64,000 bases of DNA from Stappia albiluteola. Lineage in GTDB: Bacteria; Pseudomonadota; Alphaproteobacteria; Rhizobiales; Stappiaceae. The notes under the pieces were generated by a model, which had not been told where the DNA came from, did no database searches, and saw only the letters and a program-made list of their open reading frames with translations. How positions within the stretch are numbered: the first letter of the stretch is position 1; each line of letters opens with the position of its first letter. The position numbers and the translations under genes were made by a program. The stretch spans positions 62,001 through 126,000 of the forward strand of contig NZ_JACFXV010000053.1 in assembly GCF_014050225.1 (NCBI RefSeq). The letters are read 5' to 3'. This document shows, piece after piece, positions 8,587 to 16,191 of the stretch.

Positions 8587-8664
8587 TGGATGGCAAGCGC
8601 CAGTGCATCAAGGACAATTCCCTTTTGGTGGGCTCCATGCTAGCCCCATAGAGGGAGGACCGTG

Positions 8665-9447
8665 ATGCACAAGAGCCTCGATCATGTCGAGAAGATCGCC
8701 TTTATCGCCAGCCATACCGACGAGGCGAAAGTGGCGCGGGACGCGCTTGAGGCGCGCTACGGCGCCTGCGACCTGAAGTCGGCGGAAGCCATTGTCGCGC
8801 TTGGCGGCGACGGGCTGATGCTGCAGACGCTGCACCGCTTCATGAACACGGGCAAGCCGATCTACGGCATGAATCGCGGCTCCGTCGGCTTCCTGATGAA
8901 CGAATACGACGAAAGCGGCTTGCTGGAGCGTATCCGCAGCGCCGTCGCGACGGAGATCCATCCTCTCGTCATGGAAGCGACAGACGTGGAAGGCATGGTC
9001 CATGCCGCGCTCGCCATCAATGAAGTGTCGTTGCTACGCCAGACCTACCAGGCCGCAAAGCTCAAGGTCTCCGTCGACGGGCGCGTGCGGATGGAGGAAC
9101 TGATCTGCGACGGGGTCTTGATCGCAACGCCGGCGGGCAGCACCGCTTACAATCTTTCGGCGCACGGGCCGATCCTGCCGATCCATGCCCAGCTTCTGGC
9201 GCTCACCCCGATCAGCGCCTTCCGCCCGCGCCGCTGGCGCGGCGCACTGCTGCCCAATCACGTCGAGGTACAGATCGATGTGCTTGAACCGGAGAAGCGC
9301 CCTGTCGCCGCGGTCGCAGACCATACCGAGATCCGCAATGTGGCAAGCGTCAAGGTACTGGAAGACGCCAGGTCAAGCAGTCTGATCGTCTTCGACGCGG
9401 ACCACGGCTGGGACGAACGCATCCTCAGCGAGATGTTCCGCTACTGA
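8665..9447 (+). CDS. nadK: NAD kinase
   Basis: A 260-residue cytosolic enzyme that phosphorylates NAD to NADP. The diagnostic GGDG motif is residues 47-50 (ALGGDGLML), followed by [10 protein letters not shown] and the substrate motif [18 protein letters not shown]. The length and gaps are normal for the short alphaproteobacterial NadK. The ATG at 8665 is preceded by GAGGGAGG; a GTG one codon earlier is possible. The gene is preceded by a 78-base gap after the SulP gene and appears to be a single transcription unit. Confidence 0.95.
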
Positions 9448-9592
9448 GGCCCTGCCTGGCCAAGAAACGCCGACTGCGCCCTCTTTCGGATAGGTAGTAT
9501 TACCGGCAATTATCCCGATAACCGATTTGTAATATCCGTAACGTCATATTGTGGTTTCAAGACTCGCCCCCATCCAACGCGATAAGTGAGCT

Positions 9593-10246
9593 GTGCACGA
9601 GACGGCCTTGCCAAAGCTGGAATTCACGGGCTTGCGTGTATTGGTCGCGGAAGACAATCCCCATATGCGTAAACTGCTTTTCACGCTGCTTTCGGGCCTC
9701 GGGCTGCGGAGTATCGCAATGGCGGAAGACGGCATCGACGCCTACGAAGCTTTCAAAAGACAAGCACCCGACATCATGCTGGTCGACTGGCAGATGCCGA
9801 TCATGAATGGCGCGGAACTGACGCGGCTGATCCGCAACGGGCCGGAGCCAAGCTGCTTCGTTCCGATCATCGCCGTGACAGCTTTCTCCGAAAAACGGCA
9901 TGTCCTTGCCGCACGTGATTGCGGTGTAACGGAAATCCTTTGCAAGCCCGTATCGGCGAAAGGGATCTATCTCCGCATCGTTAATTGCATTCTCAACCAG
10001 AGAAATTTCGTTCGCACGCGAGGATTTTTCGGGCCGGACCGCCGGCGATTCCAGAACCCCCACTACACGGGAGCGGAAAGGCGCGGCGGCAAAAGCGACG
10101 ACAAATATGATCTGGACCCGTCGGACGAAGTCACGCAGGCTGCGCCCAGCGAGCGAAAAGCCGATTCGGTAATATCATCAATGGTCGCTCGGACAGCCGG
10201 GGCCGATTCCGGCTCCTCGTCCTCCCGAAAGGGGAATGCGGAATGA
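9593..10246 (+). CDS. Response regulator: receiver domain with a disordered C-terminal tail
   Basis: A 217-residue protein starting with GTG. The receiver domain spans about residues 13-135, with the acidic pair E20-D21, phosphoacceptor D65 (MLVDWQMP), T96 and K118 (LCKPVS). No DNA-binding or enzymatic output domain follows: residues 140-217 are polar, basic, then serine-rich, and probably disordered. Its last four bases overlap the start of an Hpt-domain gene, so the two are translationally coupled. It most likely acts by protein contact, either as a phosphate sink or as a relay partner of the Hpt protein. No histidine kinase is adjacent. Confidence 0.88.
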   Translation: MHETALPKLEFTGLRVLVAEDNPHMRKLLFTLLSGLGLRSIAMAEDGIDAYEAFKRQAPDIMLVDWQMPIMNGAELTRLIRNGPEPSCFVPIIAVTAFSEKRHVLAARDCGVTEILCKPVSAKGIYLRIVNCILNQRNFVRTRGFFGPDRRRFQNPHYTGAERRGGKSDDKYDLDPSDEVTQAAPSERKADSVISSMVARTAGADSGSSSSRKGNAE

Positions 10247-10764
10247 CGCGCGAGACGCCAAAAGAACCCGCGAAAGAGCGGAAGGATTATGAGGTGGTGA
10301 AGCCACCTCAGGACCTGCGCTCCAAGGTCAAGATTCTGGAGGGAAAGGATGCTGCCCGGTTTGATCCGGTCCAGGCGGCGGAAGCCGCTCTCCAGCGCCT
10401 GTCCGGCGAATTCGACGCATGGATGGGCCTTGAAGTCGGCACGTTGCTTGATGCCTGGGCGGCACTTCCCGAAGGTCCGCTGACGGAAGAAGGCAAGACG
10501 ACGCTGTTCCGCGCGGCTCATGACATCAAGGGCCAGGCTGGAACGCTCGGCTATCCGCTGGCCGGCGCCGTCGCCGGCAATCTGTGCTACCTGTTCGAAC
10601 ACGTGAGCCCGGCAGCGGACATCCCCCGCGTACTCGTCGAGCAGCATATCGATGCCGTGCGCGCCATGGTTGCCGAAGGCGCGAAGGACGCAGATAACGA
10701 AGTGGCCAAGGCACTCGTGACGCGACTTGCCGACGTCACGGACGATTTCATTTCCAGACGATAA
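10243..10764 (+). CDS. Histidine phosphotransfer (Hpt) domain protein
   Basis: A 173-residue protein whose C-terminal half is an Hpt helical bundle with the phosphorylatable H93 in AAHDIKGQAGTLG (K96 and G97 fit the HxxKG motif). Residues 1-40 are charged and probably flexible. It overlaps the receiver gene by ATGA. A phosphorelay from the receiver D65 to H93, or the reverse, is the simple reading. The DUF2336 gene converges on it from the right with only 16 bases between stops, an arrangement that suggests a functional set, although the two units are transcribed towards each other. Confidence 0.88.
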   Translation: MTRETPKEPAKERKDYEVVKPPQDLRSKVKILEGKDAARFDPVQAAEAALQRLSGEFDAWMGLEVGTLLDAWAALPEGPLTEEGKTTLFRAAHDIKGQAGTLGYPLAGAVAGNLCYLFEHVSPAADIPRVLVEQHIDAVRAMVAEGAKDADNEVAKALVTRLADVTDDFISRR

Positions 10765-10780
10765 CAGGTCGGGACCAGGT

Positions 10781-11917
10781 TCAGGCCGCAAGGGAACGCC
10801 CGACAAAGGCGCGGGCTGCGTCCCGGGCGGTTTCGGTCGCGAAGCGGCGCAGCAGCGCCAGGAGATCGTCGAGCTCATCCTGCCCGAAATCCTGATACCG
10901 GGTGAGGATCCGCTCCACCATCCGGCGCGCGGTCACCGGATCGCCCGGTACGGCGTCCACCTCAAGCTCCCGCCAGACCTCCACCGCGATGACGAAGGCC
11001 CGATGAGTGCGTGGCGGCAGGCCGGCCTTTGCAACAAGCGCCCTGACGGCGCTCGGCCGGCCATGGGCCACGACATCATAGACGCGAGCAAGCGGCATGT
11101 GCGCCAGGCGTGCGAGGGCCGCCTCGAACAAGCGGATATTACCGGAACAAACGGCACGCAGGAGGAGGGCCGCAGTCAGTTGCTCCGAAACACGCAGGTG
11201 CTCGACCAGTGCCTCGGCCTCCTGCAGGGTGGCGTCAGCGGCGAGCGCCAATGTCGCCCGCTCGCGAGCCTCCACCACGACCTGCTCGGCACGCTGACCG
11301 CGCAGACCCTGGCGCACCAGAGGATGGGCGGCGAGCATGTCGCCGAGCTGCTTGACCAGCATTTGGCGAATGTTGAGCGGTGTATCCGCGCGGCCCATCA
11401 AGGCATTGCGAAGGGTAGCCGTCTCGCCATGGCGCTCGATCATCCGCGCCATGCTGAAATGAGCAATCTCTGCAGCTTCGTTCCTGATGAGCGCGAGACA
11501 GGATTCCAGCGAGCCGACTTCCGCGATTGCTGCCGCAACGGCGGGCGACACTTCCGCTCTTTTGGCAATCGCAACCTGTTGCGGCCCATCGAACGATGCG
11601 GCGAAATCCACCAGCTCGGCGTCGAGCAGGATCGGCGACGCCTCCAGAACGATTGCTGCAATCTCGGGAATATCCTCGACAAGCGCCAGGATGATGTGCC
11701 TCGGCGCCTGATCGCTCCTCGCCAGGGCATAGGCAAGGGCGCTGCGGACATAGGGGGACGGATCATCGAGCTGGATCGTCATGGCGGCTTCCGCAGCCTC
11801 GCGATCCGCCTCTCCCATCTCTGAATAGAGCCAGGCACGCGCCAATGCGTTGGTCGCCTCTGCCCGGCGATGGTCGGGAGCAGTCTGCACCCAGCGGAGA
11901 AAGGCCTGTACGATCAT
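10781..11917 (-). CDS. DUF2336-domain protein, HEAT-like helical repeats
   Basis: A 378-residue, all-helical, probably cytosolic protein of a family widespread in alphaproteobacteria and without an assigned biochemical function. The sequence is a series of alanine/leucine-rich helical hairpins of about 35-40 residues that look like HEAT repeats, for example ALARAWLYSE...DDPSPYVRSALAYALA. The start was set at the ATG followed by IVQAFLRWV, preceded by AGGGG; in-frame starts at 11968, 11998 and a TTG at 12010 would add up to 31 residues without family similarity. A near-consensus CtrA box (12103-12117) lies upstream. A scaffold role with the convergent receiver/Hpt pair is inference. Confidence 0.8.
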   Translation of the reverse strand: MIVQAFLRWVQTAPDHRRAEATNALARAWLYSEMGEADREAAEAAMTIQLDDPSPYVRSALAYALARSDQAPRHIILALVEDIPEIAAIVLEASPILLDAELVDFAASFDGPQQVAIAKRAEVSPAVAAAIAEVGSLESCLALIRNEAAEIAHFSMARMIERHGETATLRNALMGRADTPLNIRQMLVKQLGDMLAAHPLVRQGLRGQRAEQVVVEARERATLALAADATLQEAEALVEHLRVSEQLTAALLLRAVCSGNIRLFEAALARLAHMPLARVYDVVAHGRPSAVRALVAKAGLPPRTHRAFVIAVEVWRELEVDAVPGDPVTARRMVERILTRYQDFGQDELDDLLALLRRFATETARDAARAFVGRSLAA

Positions 11918-12102
11918 GGCACCCCTGCCCCGGTCCGCCGACCGGCTGCAAGCCAGAAGCTGATCCATGATTTTTGGATGGCTGCGACCCAAAATCATGC
12001 ACGTGATCAATTTGAGGCTTGGAAGGCAGACAGACTACAAAACAAGTGCCGGTCGCACCCAACCGCCCCGTTTTTCATGACTCAATCATGACGCATGAAT
12101 AC

Positions 12103-12117
12103 TTAACGAGTCGTTTA
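12103..12117. promoter_or_regulatory. Near-consensus CtrA box upstream of the DUF2336 gene
   Basis: The site reads TTAA-N7-TTTA, with one mismatch to the CtrA consensus TTAA-N7-TTAA. It lies about 190 bases before the chosen DUF2336 start, and just upstream of a possible small ORF on the other strand. It is weaker evidence than the exact sites at 13513 and 38679. Confidence 0.4.
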
Positions 12118-12155
12118 CCATAATTTCCGTTTGGTCAATTTTTACGAGGAGAAGC

Positions 12156-12257
12156 ATGCCGAATATACTGCCCGCCGGCAGGGTATATCGAGCTGACCTG
12201 GTGAGACTTATGCTGGAACCGATTCATCCTCGAGCCGGCAACGGCCCGCCAGGATGA
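12156..12257 (+). CDS. Possible 33-residue small protein
   Basis: The gap between the DUF2336 gene and the transglycosylase contains a short ORF whose ATG has a strong GAGGAG ribosome-binding site seven bases upstream. It would encode a 33-residue basic peptide (MPNILPAGRVYRADLVRLML then a Pro/Gly-rich tail) with no recognised family. A hairpin formed by ATATAC/GTATAT and TGCC/GGCA lies inside it. It could equally be a leader peptide or chance. The rest of the 11918-12321 gap shows nothing else beyond the CtrA-like box. Confidence 0.3.
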   Translation: MPNILPAGRVYRADLVRLMLEPIHPRAGNGPPG

Positions 12258-12321
12258 AACCACGCCCAGCCTGCAGCACATACTTGCCGCTCACACCGGT
12301 TCGATTTGAGCGGGACAATCC

Positions 12322-13455
12322 CTAGACGGGGGGCAGCACGTCCTTCGGCTCCTTATGCGGCCGATAGGTGAGGAAGGCGAGCAGGTTCAGCGGTGATGTC
12401 TTGTCGCCGGAAATTCCGCCTGCGTTGAGGCTCACAGAAGACTCGCTCTGCGCCTCGCCATTCGCTTTTCCTGTCAAGGAACCGATTTCCGCCGGAGCGG
12501 CAACGGGCTTGATCAGTCCATCCAGCGCGGCCTCGTCCGCTTCATTCTGGATGGCGAAGGACGACAGAAAAGTCGCGGAGAATTCAGCCGAAGGCGCACC
12601 ATTGCCATCACGGAACAAGGCATGGAAGGGCGAGGCAGGCTCCGAGGCGGCCGACCATGCCGCAAGCACCCGGCTGGCCGGGTCCGAACCGGTCAAGGGC
12701 ACAGCGTCCGAAGACCCGCCCTGCGGCGGCGCGCCCCCTGCGTCTTGTGACTGCGGCGCAAATGCCAGGACAGTGCGTGGCGCAGCCGTCGGCACCGGCA
12801 CGTTCTGCCCTGCCGTTCCTGCCACCAGGGTTTCTCCAGCCGACGGAGCGTGTTGCCGGATCAAATTGGCATAGACTTCCCCGACAGTTTTGGCCGAACC
12901 GTCGGAATTGAAGAATATTCTCCGATTGGCATTCGCCTGCTTGGCGAAAACATCGCTCGCCGCAACGTCGGGCTTGCTTTCCGCAAGACCTATCAGCTTG
13001 TTCGCCCCACCCGCTCCAAGGAAGTGGGCGATATAGAGCTCACCATCGCTCGGCTCGCGTCCAAGCTTGTCACGCAGGTAGTTTGCATTCTTCTGCGTCA
13101 ACTCGCCGGCGAGGCGGGCGGAAATTTCGGGATCCTTGCGCAGCGCCAGGATCTCCTTGCGAAGCGCCGCGTCAGAAACGCGATAGTGTCCGGAAGGCGT
13201 GCGCTCGATCTTCTCGGCATAACCGCCAAGCCCGTGCCTATGGCCGCTCTCCTTGACCGTCTCCAGCCAGGTGCTTTCGATAAACTGAAAAAGACCCGAG
13301 GCGCTCGAGGTTTTTGCCCTGGCCTGCGGATTGAGGGCCGATTCCCGTTGCGCCGTCTTCAACAGGTAGTCGAAGGAAGCGCCGGTGGTGGAACTGGCAG
13401 CCTGGAAGGCATGTTCAATTCGGCTTGCGATGGAAGCAGATCCGGAGATCTTCAT
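12322..13455 (-). CDS. Lytic transglycosylase, SLT domain
   Basis: A 377-residue protein with an N-terminal SLT-type lysozyme fold. The catalytic glutamate is E38 in QRESALNPQA, followed by SASGLFQFIESTW. Further on, GELYIAHFLGAGGA is a conserved part of this rhizobial subfamily. The C-terminal 150 residues are Ala/Pro/Ser-rich and probably disordered. No clear Sec signal is seen at the N-terminus, so it may be exported by another route, as for flagellum- or secretion-linked transglycosylases. The start ATG follows AAGAGGCAGGGA. An exact CtrA box lies 58 bases upstream, which suggests cell-cycle control of wall remodelling. Confidence 0.82.
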   Translation of the reverse strand: MKISGSASIASRIEHAFQAASSTTGASFDYLLKTAQRESALNPQARAKTSSASGLFQFIESTWLETVKESGHRHGLGGYAEKIERTPSGHYRVSDAALRKEILALRKDPEISARLAGELTQKNANYLRDKLGREPSDGELYIAHFLGAGGANKLIGLAESKPDVAASDVFAKQANANRRIFFNSDGSAKTVGEVYANLIRQHAPSAGETLVAGTAGQNVPVPTAAPRTVLAFAPQSQDAGGAPPQGGSSDAVPLTGSDPASRVLAAWSAASEPASPFHALFRDGNGAPSAEFSATFLSSFAIQNEADEAALDGLIKPVAAPAEIGSLTGKANGEAQSESSVSLNAGGISGDKTSPLNLLAFLTYRPHKEPKDVLPPV

Positions 13456-13512
13456 ATCCCTGCCTCTTGACACCGTGAGCCTTGCCGAATGGTAAATATC
13501 CGCCCATTTTGG

Positions 13513-13528
13513 TTAACGAGCGGTTAAC
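13513..13528. promoter_or_regulatory. CtrA-type binding site (TTAA-N7-TTAAC)
   Basis: TTAACGAGCGGTTAAC is an exact match to the alphaproteobacterial CtrA consensus. It sits 58 bases before the start of the SLT transglycosylase gene on the minus strand and about 120 bases before the MaoC gene on the plus strand. The position suits direct control of the transglycosylase promoter. Function is inference from motif and position. Confidence 0.6.
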
Positions 13529-13645
13529 GGCACGCCGATTTGCGCCCCTAACCTTCCGGCCCTCTTTTCAATCTCCGCAGGGTAATTCAGTAAAGTGAGT
13601 CGCACGAGACTTGCATGGAATCAACGAAACAATTGGGGAAGCGAA

Positions 13646-14107
13646 ATGCCAGGGCTTTATTTCGAGGAGTTCGAGGTTGGACATGTGTTCCACCATACGC
13701 TGACGCGGACGGTGACGGAGATGGACAACATGCTCTTCTCGAACATGACGCTGAACCCGCAGCCACTGCATATAGACAGGCATTTCTGCGAGACCCAGAC
13801 GGAATGGGGCCAACCGCTGGTCAACAGCCTCTTCACGCTCGGCCTGCTGATCGGCATTTCGGTCAATGACACAACGGTGGGCACGACGATCGCCAATCTC
13901 GGCATGAGCGATGTCCGCTTTCCCAAACCGCTCTTCCAGGGCGACAGCGTGCATTGCACGACGCTCGTCGTCGACAAGCGGGAATCGAAATCGCGCCCCG
14001 ACGCGGGGATCGTGGAATTCGAGCACAAGGCCTTCAACCAGCATGACGACCTCGTCGCGATTTGCCGGCGCCAGGCCTTCATGCGCAAGAAGCCTGCGAG
14101 CGTTTGA
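13646..14107 (+). CDS. MaoC-family (hot-dog fold) acyl-CoA hydratase/dehydratase
   Basis: A 153-residue single hot-dog domain. The hydratase-2 signature appears as N37-P38-Q-P-L-H42-I-D44, preceded by MTL where many R-specific hydratases have the catalytic Asp two residues before the Asn. This NPQPLH variant is typical of MaoC proteins paired with CitE-like lyases. The start ATG follows GGGGAAG; an upstream ATG at 13613 is out of frame. The stop is three bases before the lyase gene, so both are one operon. By analogy with itaconyl-CoA hydratase/citramalyl-CoA lyase pairs, it may hydrate a branched unsaturated C4-C5 acyl-CoA. Confidence 0.82.
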   Translation: MPGLYFEEFEVGHVFHHTLTRTVTEMDNMLFSNMTLNPQPLHIDRHFCETQTEWGQPLVNSLFTLGLLIGISVNDTTVGTTIANLGMSDVRFPKPLFQGDSVHCTTLVVDKRESKSRPDAGIVEFEHKAFNQHDDLVAICRRQAFMRKKPASV

Positions 14108-14110
14108 CAG

Positions 14111-14989
14111 ATGCGCTCGCTGCTCTTCGTTCCGGGCGACAGCCCCAAGAAACTGGCCAAGGGTTTTCAGTCCGGAGCCGATGTCCTGCTGATCGACCTC
14201 GAGGATTCCGTCGCCCAGGCGGCCAAGCAGGAGGCCCGCGACTGCACGGCGGGCTTCCTGCGAGAGACCGTGGATCGAAGGACGGGACCGAAGCTTTTCG
14301 TGCGCGTCAACGCGCTCGATACCGGCCTTGCGGATGACGATCTCGCCGCCATCATGCCCGCACGGCCGGACGGTATCATGCTGCCGAAATCGACATCCGG
14401 CGCCGACGTAGAGCATCTCTCGACGAAACTGGCGGTGCTGGAGGCTCTGCATGGCCTTGAAGACGGCATTACGGAAATCCTTGTGGTTGCCACGGAGACC
14501 GCTGCGTCCGTCTTCAATCTGGGAACCTACCGGGGCAAGAGCGCACGCCTTGCCGGCATGACCTGGGGCGGGGAGGACCTGTCCGCCGATATCGGTGCGC
14601 TGGCCAATCGTGACGAGGATGGCCGCTACACGGACGTCTACCGGCTTGCTCGCGCGCTTTGCCTGCTGGGCGCAACGGCTGCCGAGGTGACCGGCATCGA
14701 TTCCGTCTACACGAACTTCCGTGACGAAGAAGGCCTGCGGCGGGAAGCACTGGCAGCCCTGCGCGACGGCTTCACCGCCAAGATGGCGATCCATCCGGCG
14801 CAGGTGCCCGTCATCAACGAGGTCTTCACACCGGTGCCGGCGGACGTGGCGCGTGCAAGGCGTGTCGTAGAGGCCTTTGCCGAGGCGGGCGATGCCGGCG
14901 TTATCGGGCTGGATGGGGAAATGCTCGACCGGCCGCATCTGAAACGGGCGCAGAAGCTGCTCGCCCGCGCCGATGCGGCCGGGATTTAA
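14111..14989 (+). CDS. CitE-like HpcH/HpaI-family CoA ester lyase
   Basis: A 292-residue TIM-barrel lyase that cleaves or forms beta-hydroxyacyl-CoA esters such as malyl-, citramalyl- or beta-methylmalyl-CoA. Family features are the N-terminal RSLLFVPGDSPKKLAKG, LIDLEDSV (metal-binding acidic residues), the VRVNALDT arginine strand, and GMTWGGEDLSADIGA. No citrate lyase alpha or gamma subunit is nearby, so it is not a CitDEF component. It is coupled to the MaoC gene. The next gene, on the other strand, ends six bases away. The exact substrate cannot be read from sequence. Confidence 0.85.
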   Translation: MRSLLFVPGDSPKKLAKGFQSGADVLLIDLEDSVAQAAKQEARDCTAGFLRETVDRRTGPKLFVRVNALDTGLADDDLAAIMPARPDGIMLPKSTSGADVEHLSTKLAVLEALHGLEDGITEILVVATETAASVFNLGTYRGKSARLAGMTWGGEDLSADIGALANRDEDGRYTDVYRLARALCLLGATAAEVTGIDSVYTNFRDEEGLRREALAALRDGFTAKMAIHPAQVPVINEVFTPVPADVARARRVVEAFAEAGDAGVIGLDGEMLDRPHLKRAQKLLARADAAGI

Positions 14990-14995
14990 GCTCGC

Positions 14996-15610
14996 CTACC
15001 GCTCTCCAGGACGCGTCATCTGGAAGACGCTGTCCACGGAGGCATAGTCCTTGTAGCCGAGACGGGCGATCGTTCTGACCCTGGTTATGTCGAACCGGCC
15101 GTCCACGATCGCCTCGTCCGCGATATGGATGCCCACGACCTGTCCAATTACGATCCAACATTCCGCCTCCCCGCCCTCGAGGGTGGAGGGGTGGATCGTC
15201 TGCAGGTGGCGGCATTCGAGCACGGCCTTTGCGCCGGCAACGTGCGGCGCCTTGACCAGACGCGAGGGCGCGGCGGCAAGCCCCGCCTCCTCGAACTCCG
15301 ACACGCCATGCGCGAAGGCGCCCGACGAGCGGTTCATCGCATCCTTCATATCGTAGGTGGCGAGGCTGCAGGTAAAGTCGCCCGTCGCCTCGATATTCGC
15401 GACCGAGTCCTTCCACGCCGTGGAAGAAAACAGCACGATCGGTGGCGTATCGCAGACGGCATTGAAGAAGCTGTATGGGGCAAGATTTGGCCGCCCCTCG
15501 GCATCCAGCGAACCGATCCAGCCGATCGGACGGGGGGCAACGATCGCCTTGAACGGATTATGCGGCAGGCCGTGGTTGTTTTTTGCAGTTTCAAAGAACA
15601 CGGCGCTCAT
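14996..15610 (-). CDS. Flavin reductase-like FMN-binding protein
   Basis: A 204-residue split-barrel flavoprotein of the flavin reductase-like family. The FMN-binding strand APRPIGWIGSLDAEGRPNLAPYSFFNAV (about 25-52) is characteristic, followed by TPPIVLFSS. AAGGAGA precedes the ATG. The ATG overlaps the nitroreductase stop (ATGA), so the two are translationally coupled. Such proteins supply reduced flavin or act as stand-alone oxidoreductases; with a nitroreductase partner, a role in flavin-based detoxification is a reasonable guess, but neither substrate is known. Confidence 0.82.
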   Translation of the reverse strand: MSAVFFETAKNNHGLPHNPFKAIVAPRPIGWIGSLDAEGRPNLAPYSFFNAVCDTPPIVLFSSTAWKDSVANIEATGDFTCSLATYDMKDAMNRSSGAFAHGVSEFEEAGLAAAPSRLVKAPHVAGAKAVLECRHLQTIHPSTLEGGEAECWIVIGQVVGIHIADEAIVDGRFDITRVRTIARLGYKDYASVDSVFQMTRPGER

Positions 15611-16191
15611 TCTCCTTGCCAGTAAGTGACGATCTGGTCGAGTTCGGGACGCGGCCGCTCGGTCGGCGGGAGCGACGGCGTTCCGATGTGAATGAAGCCC
15701 GCTATCTGCTCGCCGTCCTTCACGCCCAGGATCCGGCCGGCTTCTGCGTCGTAGGCGACCCATTCGGTGAGCCACTGCGCGGCATAACCCAAGGCATGGG
15801 CAGCATGGAGGAGCGTCATGCAGCAGGCTCCAGCCGAAAGTTGCTGTTCCCAGACCGGGATCTTGGGGTGCTCGGCTGCGCGGCTGACAACTGCGACAAC
15901 CAGGGGAGCCCTGGCAAGGCGCTCAAGCTCCTGCTTGCGCTGTCCCTCGTCGAGCGTGCCGTTCTTCCTTTCCGCGATTGCCAGAAGCCTGCGTCCTGCT
16001 TCAAGCCGGGCCTCGCCGCGAAAGACGATGAAACGCCAGGGAGCAAGCTTGCCATGATCCGGAATGCGAGCGGCTGCCGTCAGCAGTTGCATCAATTCGG
16101 CATCGTCGGGCGCCGGCTCGACCATCGTATTGCTGGCATGCGAGCGCCGGGTCAAAAGCAGCCGAAGCGCGTCGTTTGGTTCTTGCGTCAT
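15607..16191 (-). CDS. Nitroreductase-family flavoprotein
   Basis: A 194-residue FMN enzyme of the nitroreductase fold. The N-terminal LLLTRRSHAS is the RRS-type FMN phosphate-binding motif; AAARIPDHGKLAPWRFIVF is the second cofactor segment and AAHALGYAAQWLTEW lies near the C-terminus. The subfamily resembles YdjA-like proteins. The ATG is preceded by AGGATTTCC. In-frame sequence extends upstream to 16671, but family similarity begins only at MTQEPNDAL. It is the first gene of a two-gene operon with the flavin reductase. Confidence 0.83.
   Translation of the reverse strand: MTQEPNDALRLLLTRRSHASNTMVEPAPDDAELMQLLTAAARIPDHGKLAPWRFIVFRGEARLEAGRRLLAIAERKNGTLDEGQRKQELERLARAPLVVAVVSRAAEHPKIPVWEQQLSAGACCMTLLHAAHALGYAAQWLTEWVAYDAEAGRILGVKDGEQIAGFIHIGTPSLPPTERPRPELDQIVTYWQGE

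Follow-up and report, generated by a model that had tools for sequence, protein, structure and literature searches.

A receiver gene that overlaps an Hpt gene, with a DUF2336 gene running towards them across a short gap, raises the question of where such a pair sends its signal. The initial annotation of the window (the whole stretch of 64,000 nucleotides analysed here) took the pair for an orphan phosphorelay whose output may act by contact on the DUF2336 protein. Our analysis points instead to a Cle–Hpt motility module, in which the Cle theme is varied, next to a gene that resembles SpbR.

A three-gene neighbourhood conserved across the order

Gene calls and domain matches agreed with the layout described initially: the receiver and Hpt genes overlap by 4 bp (ATGA), the DUF2336 gene converges on them with a gap of 16 bp after the Hpt gene, and there is no histidine kinase among the eight neighbouring genes scanned (positions 8662–15775; Table 1). 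The ATG at 11917 originally proposed for the DUF2336 gene is also the better start, with most relatives beginning MIV, and a TTG at 12010 is a possible alternative. The source genome of the window is an alphaproteobacterial genome of 4.36 Mb that contains five DUF2336 genes.

Table 1 Features of the locus (positions are those of the window)
Feature	Position	Strand	Details
NAD kinase gene, conserved neighbour upstream	8662..9447	+	PF20143/PF01513; present in 146/150 genomes
Cle-type receiver gene, CheY-like REC plus arginine-rich tail	9593..10246	+	GTG start; PF00072 78 bits
REC domain, residues 16–126	9638..9970	+	phosphoacceptor D65 at 9785–9787; alpha-4 Arg R108 at 9914–9916
Arginine-rich region FFGPDRRRFQNPHYTGAERR, residues 145–164, after REC	10025..10084	+	tandem [YF]xGP[DE][RK]R-type c-di-GMP motif
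Stand-alone Hpt gene, CheA-P1-like	10243..10764	+	PF01627 26.1 bits versus cut-off 24.6
SpbR-like DUF2336 gene; product is an all-helical repeat protein with C terminus SLAA	10781..11917	-	PF10098 205 bits
C-terminal Ala-Ala codons of DUF2336, degron-like	10784..10789	-	AA in 44/45 locus orthologs
CtrA-like box TTAACGAGTCGTTTA	12103..12117	.	TTAA-N7-TTTA, 7/8 core bases, 186–200 bp upstream of the DUF2336 ATG
SLT-domain transglycosylase gene, conserved neighbour	12322..13473	-	PF01464

A sample of 150 genomes of the order contained a clear single Hpt ortholog in 75, and we read the stretches around 60 Hpt orthologs as well as those around NAD kinase in most Hpt-less genomes. The gene order NADK> receiver> Hpt> <DUF2336 <SLT, MaoC>, CitE> (arrowheads giving direction) is widespread across the order. 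The receiver lies directly upstream of Hpt in 47 of the 60 Hpt loci and a full-length convergent DUF2336 gene is present in 45, an arrangement far above chance. The three-gene synteny holds across the order, so the initial proposal withstands the synteny part of the refuting condition that it had set for itself. The same arrangement occurs in, among others, Stappia, Cohaesibacter, Rhodobium, Rhodoplanes, Rhodopseudomonas, Bradyrhizobium, Nitrobacter, Methylopila and Phreatobacter, and a scan of named genomes with a receiver alignment as the query recovered all three genes in 67 of the 80 loci located in this way. Adjacency of NAD kinase and Hpt, and pairs of receiver and Hpt, occur in other alphaproteobacterial families too; a search of viral contigs for Hpt relatives found none.

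The receiver carries a Cle-type tail and an intact phosphoacceptor

PF00072 is the only domain found in the receiver, and its closest characterised match is CheY. Residues D21, D65, R108 and K118 are each invariant in the 47 locus orthologs and T96 is either Thr or Ser, so the receiver should be phosphorylatable. The initial annotation had described a receiver without an output domain, which is incomplete: the C terminus carries an arginine-rich motif of the kind with which Cle proteins bind c-di-GMP. This [YF]xGP[DE][RK]R-type motif was defined for Cle proteins, which bind both c-di-GMP and FliM (PMC5677366). The tail in the window reads FFGPDRRR...YTGAERR, the first repeat being exact and the second having Ala for Pro; among relatives from named genomes the first motif is kept in 79/79 and the tandem in 77/79. 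Its only match in the PDB is the CleD peptide 6sft (E 0.015), which is weak but specific for a query of 33 residues. In addition, D65 aligns with the Glu of a CleD-like protein and R108 with the alpha-4 Arg on which CleD function depends, and the 43 residues from D65 to R108 equal the Glu-to-Arg spacing in the CleD-like protein. The motif, together with this alignment and equal spacing, identifies the protein as a Cle-type receiver in which the phosphoacceptor is retained, and we predict from its sequence that the tail is a c-di-GMP-binding element and as such the receiver's own effector element.

The window genome encodes two further Cle-like receivers with degenerate tails, on contigs C31 and C64. 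The gene on C64 (L207:8446–9048) stands directly before an NAD synthetase-like gene, which oddly echoes, though probably by coincidence, the NAD kinase gene that neighbours the receiver in the window. The gene on C31 (C31:4230–4727; L206:4221–4730) belongs with L364–L377 to a monophyletic group of paralogs (support 100/95) that share a conserved altered tail, YFGPAPRxIRNRQ..W, without the second arginine repeat. These paralogs may bind another ligand or none.

A free Hpt protein resembling CheA P1

The Hpt protein has its phospho-His, H93 (10519–10521), in the motif HDIKG (HxxKG). This His is kept in 59/60 Hpt orthologs, and PF01627 matched all 43 of the Hpt relatives scanned. In the AF2 model (pLDDT 91.5) the protein forms a helical bundle, which Foldseek matched best to CheA P1 domains, among them that of the CheA3-P1:CheY6 complex (E 0.013–0.1, probability 1.00). 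At two loci of family f14 (L103 and L136), weak Hpt-like remnants of 33 and 47 bits lie between NAD kinase and DUF2336; there the receiver is gone, FliM is present and Hpt is apparently in decay.

Receiver and Hpt evolve together and follow the primary flagellum

We tested for correlated evolution by comparing dependent with independent gain and loss on an NAD kinase tree of 127 genomes. This tree is a single-gene proxy for the species tree and the test was our own implementation, so we rely on the contrast with control genes. Receiver and Hpt occur together at 51 tips, Hpt alone at 11 and the receiver alone at 1 (LR 69.8), the sole receiver-only tip being a locus with the receiver at a contig end (L119). 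This co-evolution, with catalytic residues that are invariant or nearly so, supports the initial assignment of the two proteins as a putative orphan phosphorelay pair, in which the stand-alone Hpt most likely phosphorylates the receiver.

Hpt is kept at a number of loci where the linked receiver has been lost (L040, L044, L049–L053, L067 and others; L346–L363). Many Hpt-containing genomes have no linked canonical receiver, and several retain just degenerate-tail paralogs. In every genome searched that has Hpt but no linked receiver, a Cle-type receiver is encoded at another site; its motif is complete or nearly so in families f7, f51 and f52, and its tail is of the YFGPAPR type in f1, f11, f25 and f28. 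We considered whether the unlinked high-scoring receivers are relocated copies and rejected this for most of them, which their tails and the tree put in the YFGPAPR paralog group (100/95).

An order-wide search separated FliM into two score classes, at about 180–232 bits and 50–118 bits, which probably correspond to primary and second (lateral-type) flagella. Hpt accompanies the high-scoring class only, which is present in 73/75 genomes with Hpt versus 15/75 without (Fisher p 1.3e-24, a value that ignores relatedness). On the NAD kinase tree, dependent evolution was detected for Hpt and FliM (LR 67.6, p 7e-14) and for the receiver and FliM (LR 44), whereas the control genes MaoC and CitE from the same loci gave LR 12–13 against FliM. 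Hpt was found in 36 of the 37 genomes in the window's own family, and the one genome without it (G459) no longer has the main FliM, only the divergent second type; across the order sample, all 13 genomes with only the divergent type are without Hpt. Hpt and FliM were also lost together inside families f1, f36 and f50. There are exceptions in both directions: G145 has Hpt without FliM, and FliM without detected Hpt is found in genomes of families f6, f8, f14 (with the Hpt remnants), f42, f43 and f47, and in G066. Presence of the SLT-domain transglycosylase gene at the locus tracks the main FliM as well (LR 30.5), and this neighbour of DUF2336 may encode a flagellum-associated transglycosylase.

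The DUF2336 gene is related to SpbR

SpbR is a proteolysed cell-pole protein. The window DUF2336 protein, which exceeds the PF10098 gathering score of 34.6 by a wide margin, matches the SpbR profile NF052659 with 245 bits over 10–356 of 358 positions; the cut-off is 400, so we do not call it an SpbR equivalog. The four DUF2336 paralogs in the same genome score 37–93 bits against this profile. In family f115, where the locus reads NADK> Hpt> <SpbR, the DUF2336 gene in this position reaches 498 and 489 bits, above the cut-off, and f115 also carries a CleD-like protein whose tail shares 77% identity with the CleD tail. The near full-length match and the equivalent position of SpbR in f115 thus mark the window gene as a positional ortholog of Caulobacterales SpbR. 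SpbR is attributed to Wang and Bowman (2019), as cited in PMC12700997, and Caulobacteraceae lineages without a flagellum are missing both spbR and hmrABCX (PMC12700997). Among the literature covered, a search on DUF2336, PF10098 and COG5330 found no paper; NCBIfam names the family SpbR. The AF2 model (pLDDT 92.3) is a helical repeat (HEAT/ARM-like) scaffold, with weak armadillo/HEAT-like Foldseek matches in the PDB of low TM-score (best E 5.7e-3), to which we give no weight. The window genome has four DUF2336 genes besides the one in the window. A distance of about 5 kb separates two of these four paralogs on one contig (C49:352505–353275 and 357764–358540; L208).

Of the DUF2336 orthologs at the loci read, 44/45 end in AA, compared with roughly 3% of the other long ORFs there; we estimated this from a total of 71/833 ORFs with an AA ending, the majority of which are the DUF2336 genes themselves. 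In named genomes the DUF2336 proteins end in AA (50/67) or VA (17/67), and the ending follows a variable linker. The four paralogs of the window genome end GAA, AV, LN and AG. A C-terminal AA is called the classical ClpXP degron in Caulobacter (PMC8119881), and the degron-like end suggests that the DUF2336 protein is subject to proteolysis.

The CtrA-like box that had been noticed upstream of the DUF2336 gene proved to be real and conserved at that position: boxes of the TTAA-N7-TTAA type with at least 7/8 core bases, none of them 8/8, are found upstream of DUF2336 at 34/45 loci versus 1.9 expected. Such boxes also precede the receiver at 26/47 loci versus 2.9 expected (the best box of the window receiver has only 6/8) and SLT at 33/46 versus 2.3 expected. 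The scan of the same loci found no enrichment upstream of NADK, Hpt or CitE. This pattern is consistent with control of DUF2336 by CtrA.

A proposed dual-input module at the flagellar switch and its alternatives

We favour, with a little more confidence than an even chance would warrant, a two-protein motility module in which the receiver is a dual-input effector that takes up phosphate via Hpt and c-di-GMP via its tail and acts at the FliM of the primary flagellum. A histidine kinase from another locus would phosphorylate Hpt on H93, Hpt would exchange phosphate with D65 of the receiver, and the arginine tail would bind c-di-GMP. Once loaded, the receiver would act in the manner of Cle proteins and CheY on FliM, the switch protein of that flagellum, and so tune rotation or the motile-to-sessile transition. 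Sequence and models establish that the genes overlap, that the catalytic residues are intact, that the tail has the Cle motif and Hpt a CheA-P1-like fold, and that receiver, Hpt and primary FliM are correlated in their presence; we infer phosphotransfer and its direction, c-di-GMP binding and the contact with FliM. Caulobacter CleA and CleD function without phosphorylation (PMC5677366), so Hpt need not control motor binding, which counts against this mechanism, as do G145, the families with FliM and no Hpt, the lost linked receivers, the Ala for Pro in the second repeat and the single-gene tree.

The initial model, in which the relay signals by protein contact to DUF2336 as its output, could draw on the convergent adjacency kept at three-quarters of the Hpt loci, on the helical repeat scaffold of the DUF2336 model and on the occurrence of both spbR and hmrX in flagella-associated gene sets of Caulobacteraceae. 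However, synteny extends over the entire block with its metabolic genes, which makes adjacency by itself a weak argument, and the gain and loss of DUF2336 and Hpt are not correlated: both are present at 44 loci, DUF2336 only at 22, Hpt only at 18 and neither at 41, counts to which contig ends add noise (LR 6.2, p 0.19). Moreover, most f41 genomes have the receiver and Hpt and carry DUF2336 nowhere in the genome. DUF2336 as the relay's output is therefore without evolutionary support, and with the negative co-occurrence test ruling against it we regard this model as quite improbable. DUF2336 is a conserved neighbour and no obligate partner of the relay, and any contact with the relay would be optional.

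The receiver might instead be a phosphate sink or intermediate, with Hpt as the hub through which a hybrid kinase reaches other receivers, such as transcription factors or diguanylate cyclases. The receiver linked to Hpt would then drain or buffer the phosphate, and its tail would make this c-di-GMP-dependent. Retention of Hpt where the linked receiver was lost would mean that Hpt has other partners, and the intact phosphoacceptor fits this role too, but a receiver without Hpt at the locus is essentially never seen, both genes track FliM, and Cle relatives act at the motor (PMC5677366); we judge a sink unlikely. The flagellar association could also be indirect, the locus simply belonging to a set of core genes that larger, free-living lineages retain, as synteny of the entire block, metabolic genes included, and the weak correlation of MaoC and CitE with FliM would suggest. 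We give this only a very slight chance, as the values for receiver and Hpt, Hpt and FliM, and receiver and FliM far exceed that background at the same loci and co-losses occurred inside single families.

The dual-input module can tentatively be widened into a view that we find possible, if doubtful. The order's Cle receivers might be coincidence detectors at the primary flagellar switch, combining phosphate from a non-chemotaxis kinase, via a free CheA-P1-like Hpt, with c-di-GMP via the tail. The ancestral locus might have been a motile-to-sessile control island with a CtrA-controlled, ClpXP-degraded SpbR-like polar protein, Caulobacter Cle, HmrX and SpbR being related parts.

Relation to known systems

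Earlier descriptions present Cle proteins as relatives of CheY in which control by c-di-GMP has replaced phosphorylation. The large conserved group described here retains the phosphoacceptor and goes with a dedicated Hpt and with the flagellum, which would mean that the two inputs can meet at the motor. The locus also gives HmrX and SpbR, Caulobacter regulators whose partners are only partly known, an evolutionary setting.

The receiver shares with the Cle proteins (2017, PMC5677366) a single REC domain, the C-terminal tandem motif and the conserved alpha-4 Arg. It differs from CleD, which has Glu at the phosphosite, in keeping Asp in every one of the 47 orthologs, and from Cle proteins in general in the dedicated Hpt encoded alongside, PMC5677366 making no mention of an Hpt. 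The pairing of a P1-like His donor with a CheY-like receiver recalls CheA P1 and CheY (for example, CheA3-P1:CheY6, PDB 3kyi), although here the donor stands free, lacks a kinase core and is encoded outside any che operon, and the receiver has a c-di-GMP-type tail. Like the SpbR family, the window DUF2336 protein gives a near full-length match to NF052659 and its gene faces NAD kinase–Hpt as in f115; unlike that family, it stays below the equivalog cut-off. HmrX (CC_1220), a putative Hpt of the Caulobacter Hmr pathway, has likewise been described as CheA-P1-like, and its deletion lowers swimming and raises holdfast and biofilm formation (PMC11481889). The HmrABC partners are reported from Caulobacteraceae only. 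HmrX itself resembles the Hpt studied here in being small and stand-alone, in its HxxKG motif and in its CheA-P1-like model, and the Hpt family here also follows flagella. The H81/A152 numbering of the L301 Hpt agrees with HmrX, provided that GTG is the start, and orthology of the Hpt at this locus with HmrX is plausible.
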